From Candidatus Aquidulcis sp. (lineage in GTDB: Bacteria; Chloroflexota; Anaerolineae; UBA4142), in assembly GCA_020723345.1 (NCBI GenBank), contig DYJA01000026.1, positions 1 through 64,000 on the forward strand: a stretch of DNA of 64,000 bases. Reading direction: 5' to 3'. A model generated the notes under the pieces. It was not told where the DNA came from. It made no database searches and was given only the letters and a program-made list of their open reading frames with translations. Positions 1,215 to 14,275 of this stretch are shown here, piece after piece. A program made the translations under genes and the position numbers. Numbering within the stretch: position 1 is the first letter of the stretch; every line of letters starts with the position of its first letter.

Positions 1215-2447
1215 CTACGGCTTGTAGGGCTTTGACCGAAACAGTCGCCCATCAGCAAGCCCAATATAAAAGCGATTATCTACATACTCTAGAGAAAGCA
1301 CCGTATGCCCATTAGGATGCGTCGAGTCTTGTCCTTCCTGAAAATCAAATCTGAAGACCGGTGTAAAATCCTGTATGCACCGACACGCCAAGGTTCGAGC
1401 GCGCATAACAAATCCATCTCCAGAAGTTCTGCCTAGAAGCACATAAAGTCCATCCTTCGCGGAAACTACGTCGCGGACGGGCCAGTCGAATTGAACCAAC
1501 CAAGGAGTCTGTCCATCGAAGAAATAGAGTCGCGGGCTGTTGTATTGATTGGACCTATAGGCGATCACGCCATACGTGTACGGCACCAAAACCGCGTTGT
1601 CATTGAAAATGACGTTCTTGTAGACATCGTCATAGCGAGCAGGCAGACAGTTTGCTTTGACAAACGTATTGCCCTCAAGCACAAAACACCCCGCCCGCCC
1701 CGTGGTCACGAAGAGTCGCTCCCCGAGGACAAAGAAACTGCCGCGTAATTGCCCTGGTAAGACGAGTGAGTCTTTCCAGGTTCGACCATTGTCCGTAGAC
1801 AACCAGGCAACCATGGCTCCTGATGGCTGCTGGTCGGTTGCCCCCGTTGCGATCAGTGATTGACCAAACAAACCTACATCCCAAACATGTACACCTCTCG
1901 GGATGGTACGCAACTTGATCCACTTGGCGTCCCATCGCTTGGAGTACATATTTCCAAAATCCCAGCTCTCTTTAGCATCGGCGCCGGCCGCGAAAAGGGT
2001 ATCGCCCTGGACGCGGAATTTATCAATTGCCTCATCGTCAAAGATGAAATTGTCGTCATGAACAAAGCGTTCAGACGCCAAGTCGAAGTATATGGCTCGC
2101 ACAGGTCCAGTATTGTTATACAAATCGCCATGAGCCACATACAGCCGGTCGTGCCAAAGCTGCAGGTCATTGATAGTCCAGTGGCTTGGCTTTGGACTGT
2201 ACGAAGCAGGTACGCCCATCAGGTCAAAGCCAAGTACTGGTAATGTCGGCGTTGCCGTCGGCGTCACTGTTGGCACTACTGTTGACGTTGCGGTTGCAGT
2301 CGCCGTTGCCGTTGTTGTCGGTGTCTGCGTTGGTGTCAGGGTATTAGTCGGCAACGGTGAAGGAGTCACTGTTGGCGTTGCTGTAGGTGCAGGTGAGCAC
2401 GCCGCCACGATCCCGAGAATGAGCATCAGAATGATTGTGTTTTTCAT
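1215..2447 (-). CDS. Secreted lipoprotein with Thr/Pro-rich linker and propeller-like body
   Basis: This is a predicted exported lipoprotein of 410 residues with unknown function. A short signal peptide ends in a lipobox with Cys at residue 17. A linker of about 50 residues made nearly only of Thr, Pro, Ala and Val follows, then a globular part with repeated aromatic and Asp/Gly-rich segments such as DNGRTW and SAKDGLYVL, which resemble sialidase/BNR-type or other beta-propeller repeats. The ATG at 2447 was chosen over the upstream codon because AGGAG lies directly before it and it starts the signal peptide. Long Thr/Pro linkers after the lipid anchor are common in Chloroflexota. A substrate cannot be named. 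Confidence 0.8.
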   Translation of the reverse strand: MKNTIILMLILGIVAACSPAPTATPTVTPSPLPTNTLTPTQTPTTTATATATATSTVVPTVTPTATPTLPVLGFDLMGVPASYSPKPSHWTINDLQLWHDRLYVAHGDLYNNTGPVRAIYFDLASERFVHDDNFIFDDEAIDKFRVQGDTLFAAGADAKESWDFGNMYSKRWDAKWIKLRTIPRGVHVWDVGLFGQSLIATGATDQQPSGAMVAWLSTDNGRTWKDSLVLPGQLRGSFFVLGERLFVTTGRAGCFVLEGNTFVKANCLPARYDDVYKNVIFNDNAVLVPYTYGVIAYRSNQYNSPRLYFFDGQTPWLVQFDWPVRDVVSAKDGLYVLLGRTSGDGFVMRARTLACRCIQDFTPVFRFDFQEGQDSTHPNGHTVLSLEYVDNRFYIGLADGRLFRSKPYKP

Positions 2448-2538
2448 AAATCTCCTCAAGAAATTGATCCGTCATTACCGGCGGATGCAATCCGACGCGA
2501 CCCAAGTGCAAACTCGATAGATCGAGTTGGCAATTTGC

Positions 2539-2567
2539 TTGACAATCCACTCGGTTTCTGGTATGCT
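2539..2567 (+). promoter_or_regulatory. Promoter of small structured RNA, copy 1
   Basis: TTGACA at 2539-2544 and TATGCT at 2562-2567 are separated by 17 bp, which is near-consensus for a housekeeping sigma factor. The expected start is about 2574, just before the 5' strand of the RNA closing stem. The same -35 and -10 hexamers with the same spacing recur at 6614-6642 before the second RNA copy, although the spacer sequences differ. Confidence 0.8.
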
Positions 2568-2573
2568 ATAGTT

Positions 2574-2662
2574 ACGATCGGGTGACCCGCCGCCTCCCTA
2601 GCACACCACTAGGGACTAAGCGGGCGTATGAGCGATTACGCTCCCCCGATCATTTTCTTTTG
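2574..2662 (+). ncRNA. Small structured RNA, copy 1 (family not recognised)
   Basis: This is a predicted independent transcript of about 88 nt. P1 closes it: GATCGGG (2576-2582) pairs with CCCGATC (2645-2651). Inside are P2, CCCGC (2586-2590) with GCGGG (2620-2624); P3, CCCTAG (2596-2601) with CTAGGG (2609-2614), closing a CACACCA loop; and P4, GAGCG (2630-2634) with CGCTC (2639-2643). A T-rich run (2653-2661) follows P1 as in an intrinsic terminator. The second copy (6649-6737) differs at 9 of the 76 core positions by hand count. The RNA has its own promoter and no open frame, and its 3' end overlaps the last codons of the convergent gene at 2650. It fits no riboswitch or ribozyme I know. 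Confidence 0.72.
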
Positions 2663-3111
2663 GAAATCGCTCTCAAGAATTCTGCCTCGGTAATTCGCCT
2701 GTTCGCTGTCTGCCGGTGCCGCACAATCTCGACCGCGAGATGATGTGCTGGAGATCGTTTGCCAACATGTCGAAACAAAATACGCGTCGGATCAAAGTGT
2801 GGAGCATCTCGGCGCAGATAAGCGATCAACGTATTCTTGATCTCTATCTCTCTCCCGGTATATTCAACGTCAATGCCAATTTGATCTACCTGATGAATAA
2901 CATTCCTCAGCAGGAAGTAAAGCCCAATCGCAAAGGTATAGATCGCGACAGCAGTGTGTGACTTGCCTTTCGCGCGCAAGCGTTGCATCACCACGCGCTT
3001 GACGTTGGCGGGAATGACAATCGCATACGAAATTCCATCGGCAACTGCCAACACAGTATCGCGTACAAGGTCGTCCATCTTGATGCTTTGATCAACCTCT
3101 GCGTTGGTCAC
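2650..3111 (-). CDS. 153-residue protein paired with structured RNA, copy 1
   Basis: This is an unrecognised protein. The GTG at 3111 was chosen because homology to the paralogue at 6725-7186 begins exactly there and both are then 153 residues; about 103 positions are identical by hand count, without gaps. Conserved blocks include GIS-x-AIVIP (26-34), IDVEYTG (80-86) and FRH-x-GK-x-S-x-AHHLA (113-126). The order of a hydrophobic strand, helix, acidic strand, helix and a basic/His-rich C-terminal block recalls an RNase H-like fold, but this is only a hypothesis. No signal peptide is seen. The last codons and the TGA overlap the 3' end of the convergent RNA. It lies downstream of sdhB in the same direction. 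Confidence 0.75.
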   Translation of the reverse strand: MTNAEVDQSIKMDDLVRDTVLAVADGISYAIVIPANVKRVVMQRLRAKGKSHTAVAIYTFAIGLYFLLRNVIHQVDQIGIDVEYTGREIEIKNTLIAYLRRDAPHFDPTRILFRHVGKRSPAHHLAVEIVRHRQTANRRITEAEFLRAISKRK

Positions 3112-3224
3112 GTTGTTTTGCCTCTCCCTGCTTGATTCTCTCGTCGCCGCGCGACACGCATCACGCCTCACGCTCCGCGCATCGCGCGGCGACTGTCCCA
3201 CTGATTGCCTGATCGCCCGATTAC

Positions 3225-3947
3225 CTAAATCTTCCCCGTGAGTTTCCCCCACATCACTTTCTTCTTCATCTCCTGAATCCCGAACGTGATTGGAATTTTC
3301 TTGGGACACTCTTCCGTGCAGTTGAAAATCGTGTGGCAGCGGAAGACGCCTTCTTCGCTCGCGACGATCTTCAACCGCTCCGCGCCGCCTTCATCGCGCG
3401 AGTCCGCGACGAACCGATACATCTTGGCGAGCGCGGCGGGTCCCAGATATTCCTTGTCCCACCACGCGGTCGAGCAAGACGTGTGACAGCACGCGCACAG
3501 AATGCAATCGATGAACTCGTCAATCCTTTTGCGATCTTCGACGTTCTGGATGCGCTCTTTCCCCGAAGGGGGCGGTTCTTTCAGCGCGATGAGATACGGG
3601 CGCACGCGCTCGTACTTGTCCCAGAACGTCGTCATATCGACGACGAGGTCTTTGAGCACCGGCAAATGCGGCAGCGGTTCGATCAGCACTTCATTGCCGA
3701 GCGTCGCGAGTTGCGTTTCGCACGCGAGCATGTTCTTGCCGTTGATGTGCATCCCGCAACTGCCGCACACCGCGCTGCGGCACGACGCGCGGAACGCGAG
3801 CGACTTGTCCACATTTTCGAGAACGTGGTACAGCGCCATCAGCACCGTCAACCCCGGCGTCAATTCGATCTGATAGTTCTGATATTTCGCCGCCGAGTCG
3901 AGTTCTGGGTCGCGGCGGTAGATGCGAAGGGTTACTGTTTGGCTCAT
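3225..3947 (-). CDS. sdhB: Succinate dehydrogenase/fumarate reductase iron-sulfur subunit
   Basis: This subunit carries electrons from the flavoprotein to the membrane quinone site of complex II. All cluster ligands are present: [2Fe-2S] Cys 56, 61, 64 and 76; [4Fe-4S] Cys 148, 151, 154 and 214; and [3Fe-4S] Cys 158, 204 and 210, a spacing that matches E. coli SdhB closely. The length of 240 residues is normal. It is the last gene of the sdhC-sdhD-sdhA-sdhB operon. A word-repeat array (3112-3224) begins straight after the stop codon. Confidence 0.97.
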   Translation of the reverse strand: MSQTVTLRIYRRDPELDSAAKYQNYQIELTPGLTVLMALYHVLENVDKSLAFRASCRSAVCGSCGMHINGKNMLACETQLATLGNEVLIEPLPHLPVLKDLVVDMTTFWDKYERVRPYLIALKEPPPSGKERIQNVEDRKRIDEFIDCILCACCHTSCSTAWWDKEYLGPAALAKMYRFVADSRDEGGAERLKIVASEEGVFRCHTIFNCTEECPKKIPITFGIQEMKKKVMWGKLTGKI

Positions 3948-3969
3948 TGCGTTGCTCCAGTCAGTCAGT

Positions 3970-4024
3970 ACTCAGTGTGCAGTATTCAGTCAAACTGAAT
4001 ACTGCATACTGAACACTGCACACT
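3970..4024. repeat. Self-complementary short-word array between sdhA and sdhB
   Basis: Variants of the words CAGTATT, CAGTGTT and CAGTGTG are followed after a CAA spacer by their reverse complements, giving a hairpin of about 25 bp per arm. The array starts in the last base of the sdhA stop codon. The same word family forms arrays at 8548-8650 and 14160-14275. Confidence 0.85.
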
Positions 4025-5726
4025 AGTATTTCCGTTCCTCCGGCTGCCACTTGGTAATCGTCACCGGCTTGTAATCGAGACGCGCGCCGTCGGGCGTAAA
4101 GTACGCGAGCGTGTGCTTCATCCAGTTCGCATCGTCGCGCGTTTTGAAATCGAGACGCGAGTGCCCGCCGCGCGATTCCTTGCGCGCGAGTGCGCCCGTC
4201 GCCGTCGCTTCCGCCACGTCCAACATACCACCCAGTTCGATGGTGCGCAGCAAATCGAGATTGAACTTGAGATTCTTCGCGTCGACGCCGATGTTGCGAT
4301 AGCGCTTTCGCAATTCGCGCAATAACGCGACCGCTTCCGTCATCGGTTTTTCGTCACGATAAATGCCGATCTGGTCCGTCATCGCGTCTTGCATCGGATC
4401 GCGCAGCGTGACGAGGCGTTCTTTGCCGGACGATTTCAGCAGCGCGTCGACTTCTGCCGATGTTTTCTTCAGCGCGTCGTTCAGCACCGCTTCTTTGAGC
4501 GCGGACGCTTTGCCTTTGACGAACTTGCCTGCCGCCGCGCCGGCGCGCTGCCCCATCACGACACATTCGAGCAAGCTGTTGCCGCCGAGACGATTCGCGC
4601 CGTGGACGCTGACGCACGCGCACTCGCCCGCCGCGAACACGCCGGGCAAAATCGTCGCGCCGTCTTTGTCGGTGTCGATGCCGCCCATGATGAAATGCAT
4701 GCCGGGTTGAATCGGAATCGGTTTTTCAATTGGATCGAGACCTAGGAAACTGATGCAGATGTCGCGAATGCCGGGCAGGCGTTCCAGAATTTTTTCGCGA
4801 CCCAGGTGGCGCAGATCGAGATAGACGCTGCCGCCGCCGTCGGGCAAGCCGCGCCCTTCGTTGATTTCGGTTTGAATCGAGCGCGAGACGATATCGCGCG
4901 GCGCGAGTTCCATCGCTTTGGCGGCGTAACGCTGCATAAATCGTTCGCCGTCTTTGTTGATGATGTAGCCGCCTTCGCCGCGCGCGCCTTCGGTCATCAA
5001 AATATTCGTGCCGATGATCGTCGTCGGATGGAATTGCACGAATTCCATATCCTTGAGCGGAATGCCGGCGCGATACGCGACCGCGAGACAAAAGCCGGTC
5101 GACTGCATCGCGTTCGACGTGCGCTTGTAGATGCGCCCCGCGCCGCCGGTCGCAAAGATGACCGCGTCCGCCGCGAACGCGCCGATTTCGCCGGTTTGCA
5201 AATTCAGCGCGACGAGTCCGTGATTTTGCGCGCCGTCACTCGCGAGCGAGAGCGCCGCCCACTCGTTGTACACCTTGACGCGCTGCTTGACCGCTTGCTC
5301 GTTGAGCGTGTGCAAAATGTAGAGCCCGGTCTTGTCGGCGGCGTAACACGTGCGCGGATAACCCGCGCCGCCGAACGGTCGCTGCGCGATCTTTCCATCG
5401 AAGGTTCGGCTGAACGGCACGCCCCAGTGCTCGAGTTCGTAAATACGCGTCGGCGCGTCGGTCGTCATCGTTTCCGAGCAATCTTGATCGGCGAGAAAGT
5501 CCGCGCCTTTGACCGTATCGTACGCGTGCTTTGCCGGAGAATCGTCTTTACATTCCGGCATATTCGCGAGCGCGGCGTTGATGCCGCCTTGCGCCGCGCC
5601 GGAGTGCGAACGCACCGGATAGAGCAGCGAGAGCACCGCGGTATCCACACCCAGCATCGCGCACTCGACCGCGGCGCGCAAGCCCGCCAATCCGCCGCCG
5701 ACGATAATGACTTGATGTTTCAGCAT
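4023..5726 (-). CDS. sdhA: Succinate dehydrogenase/fumarate reductase flavoprotein subunit
   Basis: This is the catalytic subunit that oxidises succinate to fumarate (or the reverse) with covalently bound FAD. It has 567 residues. The FAD-binding GGGLAG is at 10-15, the RSHSGAAQGG segment (39-48) holds the His expected to bind FAD, and QFHPTT, TEGARGEGG, HFIMGG and GANRLGGNSLLE are all present. The ATG at 5726 follows a strong GAGGAGG ribosome site; a longer frame extending to 6065 runs through sdhD in another reading frame and is not coding. It is downstream of sdhD with a 14-bp gap. Confidence 0.97.
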   Translation of the reverse strand: MLKHQVIIVGGGLAGLRAAVECAMLGVDTAVLSLLYPVRSHSGAAQGGINAALANMPECKDDSPAKHAYDTVKGADFLADQDCSETMTTDAPTRIYELEHWGVPFSRTFDGKIAQRPFGGAGYPRTCYAADKTGLYILHTLNEQAVKQRVKVYNEWAALSLASDGAQNHGLVALNLQTGEIGAFAADAVIFATGGAGRIYKRTSNAMQSTGFCLAVAYRAGIPLKDMEFVQFHPTTIIGTNILMTEGARGEGGYIINKDGERFMQRYAAKAMELAPRDIVSRSIQTEINEGRGLPDGGGSVYLDLRHLGREKILERLPGIRDICISFLGLDPIEKPIPIQPGMHFIMGGIDTDKDGATILPGVFAAGECACVSVHGANRLGGNSLLECVVMGQRAGAAAGKFVKGKASALKEAVLNDALKKTSAEVDALLKSSGKERLVTLRDPMQDAMTDQIGIYRDEKPMTEAVALLRELRKRYRNIGVDAKNLKFNLDLLRTIELGGMLDVAEATATGALARKESRGGHSRLDFKTRDDANWMKHTLAYFTPDGARLDYKPVTITKWQPEERKY

Positions 5727-5740
5727 AGTTTTTATCCTCC

Positions 5741-6097
5741 TCACTTGACGAAGAACGTCAGCGCGTACGCGCCCCAGAGCAGGAACGCGAGACCGACGAG
5801 CCAGAACAAAATGTTGAACGCGCGGCGTTTGCCGTCGGCTACGACGAAATCGAACAACACGTTGCGAACGCCGTTGAGTCCGTGGAATAACCCGACCGCG
5901 AGCAAGCCGCCGTCGATGATTAGATACAGCAGACTTTTGAACCGCGCCGCGGCGCCGAGAAAATTGATGTTCAAATTTTCGGGCACGTAATGCAGCACGA
6001 ACAGGTGCGCGCCCAGGAAAAAAACCAGCAGAACGGCGGTGATGCGCTGCCAAATCCACGCCCACACGCCTTGGGGTTTGGGTGTAACTTGTGTCAT
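5741..6097 (-). CDS. sdhD: Succinate dehydrogenase membrane anchor subunit (SdhD-like)
   Basis: This is a small membrane protein of 118 residues with three hydrophobic segments (about 14-36, 52-75 and 93-116) that would anchor SdhAB and help form the quinone/haem site. The sequence QRITAVLLVFFLGAHLF in the first segment and HGLNGVRN after the second carry the arginine and histidines typical of these anchors. HGLNG-x-R is shared with the SdhC-like protein upstream, so the two anchors are related. Which is called C or D is by gene order only. Confidence 0.88.
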   Translation of the reverse strand: MTQVTPKPQGVWAWIWQRITAVLLVFFLGAHLFVLHYVPENLNINFLGAAARFKSLLYLIIDGGLLAVGLFHGLNGVRNVLFDFVVADGKRRAFNILFWLVGLAFLLWGAYALTFFVK

Positions 6098-6112
6098 AGG
6101 TGTCTCCCGTGA

Positions 6113-6199
6113 GACGTAATGCGTAATGCGTGATGCGTGAGCGCCCTAAGCGGAACGAAGTGGAGTCGAAGGGTCACGCATCACGCCGCACGCATCACG
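6113..6199. repeat. GTGATGCGTG word array with a CCTTCGACT-type hairpin core
   Basis: Copies of GCGTGATGCGTGA face their reverse complements across a core that contains GAAGTGGAGTCGAAGG. The element fills the sdhC-sdhD gap and supplies the TGA stop of sdhC. The same core appears, read on the other strand, inside the genes at 34494 and 48093. Confidence 0.8.
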
Positions 6200-6566
6200 T
6201 CAGAATGTGCGGCAACGCGATGACGAACGCGATCACGAACGGGATAATCGCGATCACCATCAACGCGATGAAAATTTCTTTTTGCCTTTTCACGCCGCGC
6301 CCGAGATCGAACAGCACGATACGCGCGCCGTTCAGCCCGTGAATCAAAATCGTCGCGAGCAAGCCCAGTTCGAGCAGAATGAAGATCGGCGCTTTGAGAA
6401 ATTTCATCGCCGCGTCAAAACTGCCCGCGCCGCCGACGACGGTCGAAATGACAAGGATGTGCATCAGCAAGTACGCGGCGATGGCAAGCCCGGTGAGCCG
6501 GTGCAGCCAGAACGCCCACATCCCCAATCCGCGACCCGGATAAACTGTGTGCTTGGTTAATGGCAT
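6195..6566 (-). CDS. sdhC: Succinate dehydrogenase cytochrome b556-type subunit (SdhC-like)
   Basis: This is the first gene of the sdh operon and encodes a three-helix membrane anchor of 123 residues. WAFWLHRLTGLAIAAYLLMH (17-36) contains the H-R-x-T-G quinone-side motif and a candidate haem-ligand His, and HGLNGARI lies after the second helix. AAGGAGGAG precedes the ATG at 6566. The 5' region contains the second structured-RNA promoter pointing the other way, so transcription of the RNA and of sdhC diverges from the same interval. Confidence 0.92.
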   Translation of the reverse strand: MPLTKHTVYPGRGLGMWAFWLHRLTGLAIAAYLLMHILVISTVVGGAGSFDAAMKFLKAPIFILLELGLLATILIHGLNGARIVLFDLGRGVKRQKEIFIALMVIAIIPFVIAFVIALPHILT

Positions 6567-6613
6567 GTCTCCTCCTTTGGATCGAATTCAGCACGAATTT
6601 TTTGTAGGGCTTA

Positions 6614-6642
6614 TTGACAATCGCTTCGATTTCTGCTATGCT
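6614..6642 (+). promoter_or_regulatory. Promoter of small structured RNA, copy 2
   Basis: TTGACA at 6614-6619 and TATGCT at 6637-6642 have a 17-bp spacer, identical in hexamers and spacing to copy 1. The expected transcript begins at about 6649, at the P1 stem. It lies about 50 bp upstream of sdhC and points away from it. Confidence 0.8.
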
Positions 6643-6648
6643 GTGACC

Positions 6649-6737
6649 ACGATCGGGTGACCCGCAGCCTCCCCGGCACACCACCGAGGACTAAGCGGGC
6701 GTATGAGCGCCTGCGCTCCCCCGATCATTTTCTTTGG
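6649..6737 (+). ncRNA. Small structured RNA, copy 2 (family not recognised)
   Basis: The architecture matches copy 1. P1 is 6651-6657 with 6720-6726, P2 is 6661-6665 with 6695-6699, P3 is CCCCGG (6671-6676) with CCGAGG (6684-6689) around the unchanged CACACCA loop, and P4 is GAGCG (6705-6709) with CGCTC (6714-6718). Relative to copy 1, two P3 pairs change together (T-A to C-G and A-T to G-C), one P3 pair becomes C-A, three of four P4 loop bases change, and one base changes between P2 and P3. Everything else in the 76-nt core is identical. The 3' end overlaps the last codons of the gene at 6725. Confidence 0.73.
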
Positions 6738-7186
6738 GAGAGCATCCCCAGAAATTCCGCCTCACCAATTCGCTTGTTCGGTAGCCGCCGATGCCGCGCA
6801 ATCTCGATTGCAAGATGGTGTGCCGATGATTTCTTCCCGATGTGCCGAAATATGATCGGCGACGGATCAAAACTCGGATCATCCCTTCGTAGAAGTGCAA
6901 CCACAATGTTCTTAATCGCGCTTTCCCATCCCGTGTACTCTACGTCAATGTACGCTTGATCAATCGCGCGGACGACATTCCTCAACAGCAGGTACAGTCC
7001 CACCGAAAAAGCGTAGATCGTTGCTGCCGTCTGCGATTTGCCTTTTTCTCGAAGATGCCGCATGACAGCACGTTTGACATTGGAAGGAATAACAATCGCA
7101 AATGAAATTCCATTGGCAATCGCCAGCACGGTATCACGCGCGAGATCGTTTATCTTAATGCTCTGATCAACTTCAGCGTTAGTCAC
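6725..7186 (-). CDS. 153-residue protein paired with structured RNA, copy 2
   Basis: This is the paralogue of the protein at 2650-3111, of equal length and alignable end to end. GTG at 7186 is the first codon of the conserved block. Conserved acidic residues sit in IDVEYTGWE (80-88), and a His/Lys-rich block FRHIGKKSSAHHLA spans 113-126. An RNase H-like fold is possible but unproven, and no known family was recognised. It ends tail to tail with the RNA at 6649-6737, in the same geometry as copy 1. Protein copies are far more diverged (about one third of residues) than the RNA cores, so the pair has been kept together for a long time. Confidence 0.75.
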   Translation of the reverse strand: MTNAEVDQSIKINDLARDTVLAIANGISFAIVIPSNVKRAVMRHLREKGKSQTAATIYAFSVGLYLLLRNVVRAIDQAYIDVEYTGWESAIKNIVVALLRRDDPSFDPSPIIFRHIGKKSSAHHLAIEIARHRRLPNKRIGEAEFLGMLSQRK

Positions 7187-8547: not shown

Positions 8548-8650
8548 TCAGTATCCAGTGTTCAGTATGCAGTATTCAGTGTCCAGTCCAACTGAATACT
8601 GAACACTGAATACTGTCCCACTGTCCCACTGTTCACTGTTCACTGTTCAC
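8548..8650. repeat. CAGTATTCAGTGTT word array between fdhD and the nuoF-gltD gene
   Basis: Degenerate seven-base words (CAGTATC, CAGTGTT, CAGTATG) face complements (ACTGAAT, ACTGAAC) across CCAA, followed by a TGTTCAC run. The last codons and stop of the nuoF-gltD fusion gene lie inside this run. Confidence 0.83.
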
Positions 8651-14159: not shown

Positions 14160-14275
14160 GAACAGTCAACAGTCAACAGTTAACAGTTAACAGTGTTCGG
14201 TGTTCAGTGTTCGGTGTTCAGTATTCATTTTCCACTGCTCACTGTTTCCTGTTCACTGTTCACTGTTTACTCTTG
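14160..14275. repeat. AACAGTCAACAGTTAACAGTGTTCGG word array
   Basis: AACAGTC and AACAGTT words pass into GTGTTCGGTGTTCAG, then TTCACTGTTCACTGTTTAC. The TAA stop of the downstream-oriented DRTGG gene (14267) is part of the array. It is the third array with CAGT-type words in the window. Confidence 0.8.

Follow-up and report, generated by a model that had tools for sequence, protein, structure and literature searches.

A structured RNA and a putative RNase H-fold protein form a conserved tail-to-tail unit in Chloroflexota, in an arrangement known from DUF3800

In type III toxin-antitoxin systems (ToxN/ToxI and kin) the RNA antitoxin, usually made of tandem repeats, precedes the toxin gene within one operon, and ToxN is PemK-like; in txpA/RatA, a type I pair, the RNA is convergent with the gene. 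Here we describe a cassette found twice in a 64,000-nucleotide stretch of the Candidatus Aquidulcis sp. genome (Chloroflexota, Anaerolineae; assembly GCA_020723345.1, contig DYJA01000026.1, positions 1 to 64,000; hereafter the window), in which a structured RNA with its own promoter stands tail to tail with a gene for a 153-residue protein. The arrangement is already known from DUF3800, for which PMC10910872 reports an RNase H fold, a catalytic rearrangement and an association with putative non-coding RNAs. Rfam contains at least two such RNAs, DUF3800-I and DUF3800-IX. For the putative RNAs, PMC10910872 cites Weinberg et al. 2017. The initial annotation had held that no described system has this layout, which was wrong, because DUF3800 genes and the DUF3800-IX RNA share it, also within the window genome. 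Since the two families are connected by no Pfam match, no profile relation and no RNA cross-match, the cassette unites a new protein family and a new RNA family, and does so in an arrangement that is known, though uncharacterised. Openly licensed literature, within the limited and partly accessible portion searched, contained no description of the window family and no stated function for such RNA-protein pairs or for the DUF3800-associated RNAs. We favour the reading that the RNA binds and restrains a presumed nuclease, so that the pair would act in a toxin-antitoxin-like way; binding, cleavage and inhibition are the inferred parts of this reading, which we consider plausible without calling it probable.

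The pairing of protein and RNA is a real, conserved unit. The independent direction of evidence runs from the protein to the RNA: 52 full-length members, the window's two included, were collected by protein sequence alone (the search gave matches in 34 of the 396 genomes of the class, the window's own among them, and up to nine per genome), and the RNA was sought second. The RNA is convergent with the 3' end of the gene in 51 of the 52; the end of its closing stem falls between 44 nt inside the gene and 25 nt past the stop codon, mostly 1-12 nt past it. The exception (L007) has the RNA on the 5' side of the gene, in divergent orientation, and full-length proteins without a nearby RNA number 0/52; the possibility that the protein mostly lacks the RNA thus did not come out. 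As the stem search was confined to the surroundings of the stop codon, a blind closing-stem test was run as a check, and it was passed by 45/51 3' ends compared with 6/51 5' flanks and 8.6% of shuffles. Promoter-like hexamers (at least 9 of 12 positions) precede 52/56 unit RNAs vs 8.6% of shuffled sequences, with a best spacing of 17 in 38/56.

From the opposite direction, the RNA model R1, built from 49 RNAs, gave 69 hits in 34 of the 396 genomes. Fifty-one are convergent with a complete or fragmentary protein match, one is the divergent L007 and 17 have no protein match, so that the RNA is not found mostly without the protein either, although most of the 51 are not independent because R1 was trained on RNAs found beside genes. 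The protein profile gave 68 hits in 35 genomes, and 27 genomes have both parts. Among the eight genomes with the protein and no R1 hit, six have an RNA from the stem search (L025, L029, L030, L031, L032, L056) and two have only gene fragments. Nine of the 58 RNAs were omitted from the alignment A3, namely L044, L052, L025, L028, L041 and L034 (109-140 nt) and L030, L031 and L056. L007, L055, L058, L059, L071, L076 and L077 had been left out of the RNA set itself (failed stem search, gene fragment or duplicate contig), and R1 later matched L007, L059 and L077 despite this. A sample of the wider phylum, searched with the protein alone, gave matches in 2/201 genomes, both belonging to the same class; the family is thus concentrated in the class. 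Neighbouring genes lie on the protein's strand in 37/52 cases upstream and 35/48 assignable cases downstream, a rough count from longest open reading frames (ORFs). Tandem arrays of three RNA-protein units were observed at L040 (G039:C105) and L050 (G137:C135), with one L050 gene shortened.

Both window cassettes are built as initially annotated: promoters, RNAs, GTG-initiated genes and their overlap agree to the base (Table 1), and the hand counts of differences between the copies, 50/153 residues and 9/76 RNA bases, are exact. Among the nine RNA differences, two whole P3 pairs are swapped on both sides (U-A to C-G and A-U to G-C) and one difference disrupts a base pair. Bases of the gene's stop codon double as part of the closing stem's 3' strand; the last codons are overlain by the U-rich tail (ATTTTCTTT). 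R1, which was built with both copies, scores them at 63.5 bits (copy 1) and 69.1 bits (copy 2). The view that the two parts were kept together and did not arise by recent duplication holds up: homologous units exist in other genomes, and the window copies differ at a nonsynonymous divergence (dN) of 0.20 and a synonymous divergence (dS) of 2.1, with 67% protein identity. For copy 1 and a unit of the same genus the values are dN 0.055 and dS 0.43. The reading frame of copy 1 is open beyond the GTG at 3111 (219-codon ORF), and its 153-codon start was set by homology. A transfer RNA (tRNA) reading was set aside, ARAGORN having found no tRNAs within the window.

Table 1. Positions of the two RNA-protein cassettes in the window
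Feature	Position	Strand	Basis or remark
Promoter of RNA copy 1, TTGACA-N17-TATGCT	2539..2567	+	sequence; family-wide promoter test
-35/-10 hexamers of copy 1	TTGACA 2539-2544, 17-nt spacer, TATGCT 2562-2567	+	
Structured RNA copy 1 (P1 closing stem, P2-P3 arm, P4 hairpin)	2576..2651	+	fold, covariation
U-rich tail after P1, copy 1, likely terminator	2652..2664	+	sequence; covers last codons of convergent gene
Putative RNase H-fold protein copy 1 (P0001), 153 codons, GTG start, TGA stop	2650..3111	-	
Promoter of RNA copy 2, TTGACA-N17-TATGCT	6614..6642	+	sequence
-35/-10 hexamers of copy 2	TTGACA 6614-6619, 17-nt spacer, TATGCT 6637-6642	+	
Structured RNA copy 2	6651..6726	+	R1 score
U-rich tail after P1, copy 2	6727..6736	+	sequence
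Putative RNase H-fold protein copy 2 (P0002), 153 codons, GTG start, TGA stop	6725..7186	-	AlphaFold pLDDT 95.5

The RNA is closed by a stem, P1 (GAUCGGG/CCCGAUC in the window), and has a three-way junction with a P2-P3 arm, whose loop is often UAACCAC, CACACCAC or UUGACC, and a P4 hairpin, followed by a U-tract; the 58 RNAs are 71-140 nt long (median 83). In a sequence-only alignment of 49 of them, 96.9% of cells are paired in P1 and 87.3% in P2, and 12 of the 13 pairs of these two stems show changes on both sides. Covariation over the whole structure is 0.409 vs 0.195 in shuffled alignments, none of 500 being as high, and 0.07-0.20 when the partners are slid. The alignment is poor in P3 and P4, where 66% and 62% of cells are paired, in part because loop lengths differ; support for these two stems comes from single-sequence folds, in which the design is seen in most RNAs, not all. 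Counting G-U against A-C mismatches favours an RNA from the plus strand in P1 (15 to 5) and is undecided in P2 (12 to 13). At gathering score, Rfam gave no matches in the window and 20 further loci; a permissive scan of 11 loci returned one tRNA and chance matches of microRNA, long non-coding RNA and small nucleolar RNA type, and no DUF3800 RNAs.

The tail-to-tail layout, with the RNA 3' end overlapping the last codons, is what the family has in common with txpA/RatA, and it might suggest that the RNA controls the gene in cis through this overlap, as an antisense RNA or by transcription interference. We regard this as most improbable. The overlap is short, covariation in P2 is internal to the RNA and would not be needed for antisense pairing, and RNAs persist where the gene is gone. 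The protein, too, is basic, 153 residues long and modelled as globular, not a small hydrophobic peptide. Unlike such type I systems, the family joins a globular basic protein of about 150 residues to an RNA with deep structural conservation.

For either window protein there were no matches in Pfam, NCBIfam or PADLOC, and the PHROGs matches, all to functionally uncharacterised families, were weak (E 0.0035 and up). Across the 52 members Pfam gave 17 scattered weak matches, the best to ThylakoidFormat (E 3e-4, in three members) and none to DUF3800, while the family profile A1 against PDB sequences yielded chance-level DNA polymerase matches and nothing else. The AlphaFold model of the copy 2 protein, made with 52 sequences, has a predicted local distance difference test score (pLDDT) of 95.5. 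Upon structural re-alignment, RNases HII, H2 and HIII were the best solved matches, occupying ranks 1-16 with Z from 10.2 to 7.8 (top match RNase HII 1eke_A, 122 residues at 2.7 Å), and Argonaute, UvrC and retroviral integrase came lower. The modelled fold is therefore that of RNase H, with RNase HII as its closest match, the HII assignment resting on the re-alignment. D7, S9, K38 and D81 are present in 52/52 members, position 83 is E (47) or D (5) and position 123 is H (46) or D (6). Judged by topology, D7, D81 and H/D123 would occupy the metal-holding places of RNase H enzymes; in the comparison with the acidic site of RNase HII, where equivalence is by topology only, Q or L takes the place of the second acid. 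In contrast to RNases HII, H2 and HIII, the family has no Pfam or PDB sequence match, lacks the second acid of the DE motif, is smaller and has a partner RNA. Its members are basic (median isoelectric point 9.73), and their genes are under purifying selection, with dN/dS of 0.07-0.28 (dN 0.055-0.40, dS 0.43-2.9) in the listed pairs with finite dS.

RNase H folds bound to guides occur in Argonaute and in TnpB/IscB. One could accordingly imagine a ribonucleoprotein effector, for instance in anti-phage defence, in which an RNase H-fold nuclease would be activated by the RNA, its fixed cofactor or scaffold. The fold itself, the Argonaute chains among the structural matches and the up to nine dissimilar copies per genome would be compatible with such a role, as would the co-inheritance of RNA and protein in 43 paired units (Mantel r 0.61, the highest of 5000 permutations being 0.18), for which common ancestry alone could also account. 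However, no long variable unpaired stretch resembling a guide was noticed by eye in the 58 aligned and folded RNAs, which are folded end to end, and PADLOC had no match. We hold an effector of this kind to be quite unlikely.

DUF3800 genes had been taken as a negative control for the closing-stem test, and their 3' ends scored like those of the units (11/20 at or above 19). This failed control led to the DUF3800-IX RNA (RF02968), which was found at 7/20 DUF3800 (PF12686) loci and 1/12 more, including one in the window genome (L102). In 40 related genomes, 22 of the 30 DUF3800-IX hits (21/26 above gathering score) are convergent with a DUF3800 match, with the RNA 71-113 nt from the end of the domain; the other 8/30 do not adjoin a DUF3800 match. 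The model of the window genome's DUF3800 protein (9 sequences, pLDDT 88) is likewise closest to RNase HII/H2 (1uax_A, Z 13.1). Both families thus share an RNase HII-like modelled fold (Z 10.2 and 13.1), a tail-to-tail RNA and RNA-only hits. They differ in sequence: the window family has no Pfam match, hhalign of A1 with 24 DUF3800 sequences gives a probability of 0.7% over 23 columns, and the conserved residues are DQS..K..DxEY..H in one and DE..E..D..QxAD in the other. The RNA models do not cross-match, R1 having no hit at E up to 10 across 30 DUF3800 loci. A second RNase H-fold family with an unrelated RNA of its own, laid out alike, renders a chance association improbable and offers two RNA designs on one fold and in one arrangement for comparison. 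At two loci of another DUF3800 group, L090 and L093 (in G274 and G207), we also observed a tail-to-tail RNA of about 92 nt with an 11-bp closing stem, hexamers at 9/12 and no Rfam match. In G039, contig C5 (2468-6230), a unit of the window family and a DUF3800/DUF3800-IX unit lie less than 4 kb apart in the same orientation.

The window family is not confined to Chloroflexota. One genome per species was scanned, which yielded 22 loci, including Woesearchaeota, Nanoarchaeota, Pacearchaeota, a metagenome-assembled genome of Levybacteria and one contig labelled Nitrospinia, and sampled searches found it in 7/236 genomes of an archaeal phylum (two weak) and 10/110 of a candidate-phyla class. The relation of the archaeal set to the family profile is unambiguous (hhalign 100%, E 6e-50). 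Many of these 3' ends bear RNAs whose start resembles GGGUG and whose 3' stem is rich in C, the archaeal ones preceded by TATA-like boxes, and minimum-energy folds of L072, L073 and L079 give the same P2-P3 arm and P4 hairpin. The unbroken-closing-stem test was passed at 14/28 archaeal and candidate-phyla loci vs 3/28 5' flanks and 8-11% of shuffles. This test is crude in that it demands an uninterrupted stem, which is why 45/51 Chloroflexota units pass it and only 14/28 of the others: an internal loop in P1 makes several archaeal RNAs fail, and at least one archaeal pass (L070) is not owed to the RNA's own stem. Hence the RNA claim outside Chloroflexota is partly a by-eye one. At L080, on the contig labelled Nitrospinia, both the relative and its RNA look archaeal (TTTTAAATA box), and the contig may be misbinned. 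Taking the two families together, one may ask whether RNase H-fold proteins with a private tail-to-tail RNA constitute a large, old and unrecognised class in bacteria and archaea. DUF3800 and the window family would be two of its branches without detectable sequence relation, and the RNA would inhibit or switch the nuclease by binding it, as a new kind of RNA antitoxin or cofactor. Such a class seems to us possible, if somewhat doubtful.

RNAs without the protein bear on what the RNA is for. One of the 17 protein-less hits sits at a contig end, leaving 16 usable solo copies, of which 11 have promoter hexamers at 9/12 or better. For nine of the 16, the flanking genes resemble those of a gene-bearing locus, complete or degraded, in another genome, which points to loss of the gene with the RNA kept, rather than to movement. 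L129 retains a recognisable decayed gene remnant (and is counted among the 51 convergent hits), whereas none was found in L116. A third RNA of the family in the window genome is also solo (L143, 1501-1584, contig C120), and G257 bears the complete unit at the corresponding locus. Between orthologous loci the solo RNAs have changed little: L116 and L129 agree at 85 of 86 positions with a dS of 0.545 for a flanking gene, and L130 and L139 at 66/73 with a dS of 0.438. Also within complete units the RNAs change less than the proteins. In the four closest unit pairs the RNAs are 97-100% identical over aligned columns and the proteins 79-89%; for L018 and L019 the aligned RNA columns show no difference at a protein identity of 82% and a dS of 0.80, and the RNAs of L020 and L033 are 99% identical at a dS of 1.7.

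These observations, together with the RNA-bearing genomes that have no protein match (seven in all), fit the main rival to restraint of a nuclease by the RNA: the RNA would be the active part, trans-acting or structural and with a role of its own, and the protein an optional partner that processes, protects or removes it. Nonetheless, solo copies are a minority (17/69), and the losses of the protein gene may be recent or independent. A protein match also occurs in 27 of the 34 RNA-bearing genomes, and the near absence of the protein from the wider-phylum sample (searched with the protein alone) is unlike a housekeeping system. We therefore rate the RNA as the working part as rather unlikely.

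The same loci speak to a mobile element resembling TnpB, with a structured RNA end and RNA-only copies that would be non-autonomous. Many copies at different intergenic places, the tandem arrays and the RNA-only copies could all be seen this way. Yet the window copies are old, as their protein identity indicates, units occupy the same place in other species or genera, and the shared flanks of solo RNAs speak for loss, not movement; terminal repeats or site duplications were not recognised by eye in the one empty-site comparison. Mobility is thus a very improbable explanation.

Restraint of a nuclease by its RNA is favoured on account of the pairing, the one-sided loss and the presence or absence of the unit beside sdhC, where a relative has a ParE/RelB-like pair. 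The asymmetry, 17/69 RNA hits without protein against 0/52 proteins without a nearby RNA, is as expected for an antitoxin and its toxin. Beside sdhC the window genome has the unit (copy 2), and so does G137, with its gene broken; nothing fills the nuoE-sdhC gap of G039 and G227, and the genus mate G265 has at this site (L225, about 1948-2420) a type II pair with a broken ParE (E 2e-6) and a sub-threshold RelB-like antitoxin. As we picture the mechanism, a strong promoter would make a compact RNA of about 80 nt, with closing stem, three-way junction, long arm, hairpin and a U-tract terminator, and the convergent gene would yield a small basic protein with an RNase H fold nearest RNase HII. The protein would cut nucleic acid, and the RNA would bind its own protein and inhibit it, that is, it would be a structured-RNA antitoxin acting on protein, and the pair would behave like a toxin-antitoxin or addiction module. 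The scheme may extend to the DUF3800 proteins with their RNAs, where fold and layout are the same. The proposed logic, a structured RNA restraining a nuclease protein, is that of type III systems, from which the family differs in that its RNA is convergent, has its own promoter and is a single unit, and in that the protein has a modelled RNase H fold.

Several results weigh against this interpretation. No match was found among 72,556 plasmids or 50,697 phage records, where addiction modules abound (the family's hosts, though, belong to uncultured lineages), and three narrow-pattern scans of viral contigs brought up no family member. RNA-only copies are found in seven genomes without any protein match (completeness 98% in G378, 97% in G362, 93% in G171 and G192), and a pure antitoxin need not persist in this manner. 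Foldseek alone gave nothing at E <=0.001 either in PDB (best RNase HI, 0.026) or in BFVD (best 0.003). Moreover, the predicted catalysis is not certain, because Cys replaces D81 in 4/7 members of the archaeal alignment and Gln or Leu stands in place of the second RNase HII acid. What a structured, apparently non-guiding RNA does for an RNase H-fold protein can now be tested with a cassette of 600 bp.

Some minor observations may be added. Two pattern matches in the viral contigs were weak (R1 21.3 and 16.2 bits) and were discarded, the surrounding stretch containing no family member. Next to copy 1, the window has a lipoprotein-like gene (1215-2459, minus strand) with no match at the equivalent place in the genus mate G039, where the unit is present. 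Finally, a short dispersed repeat close to ACTGAATACTGAACACTG clusters at window positions 3957-4025, 8549-8615 and 14191-14229; it has 14 matches with at most three mismatches vs 0 expected, and a similar stretch occurs in L143 of the same genome.

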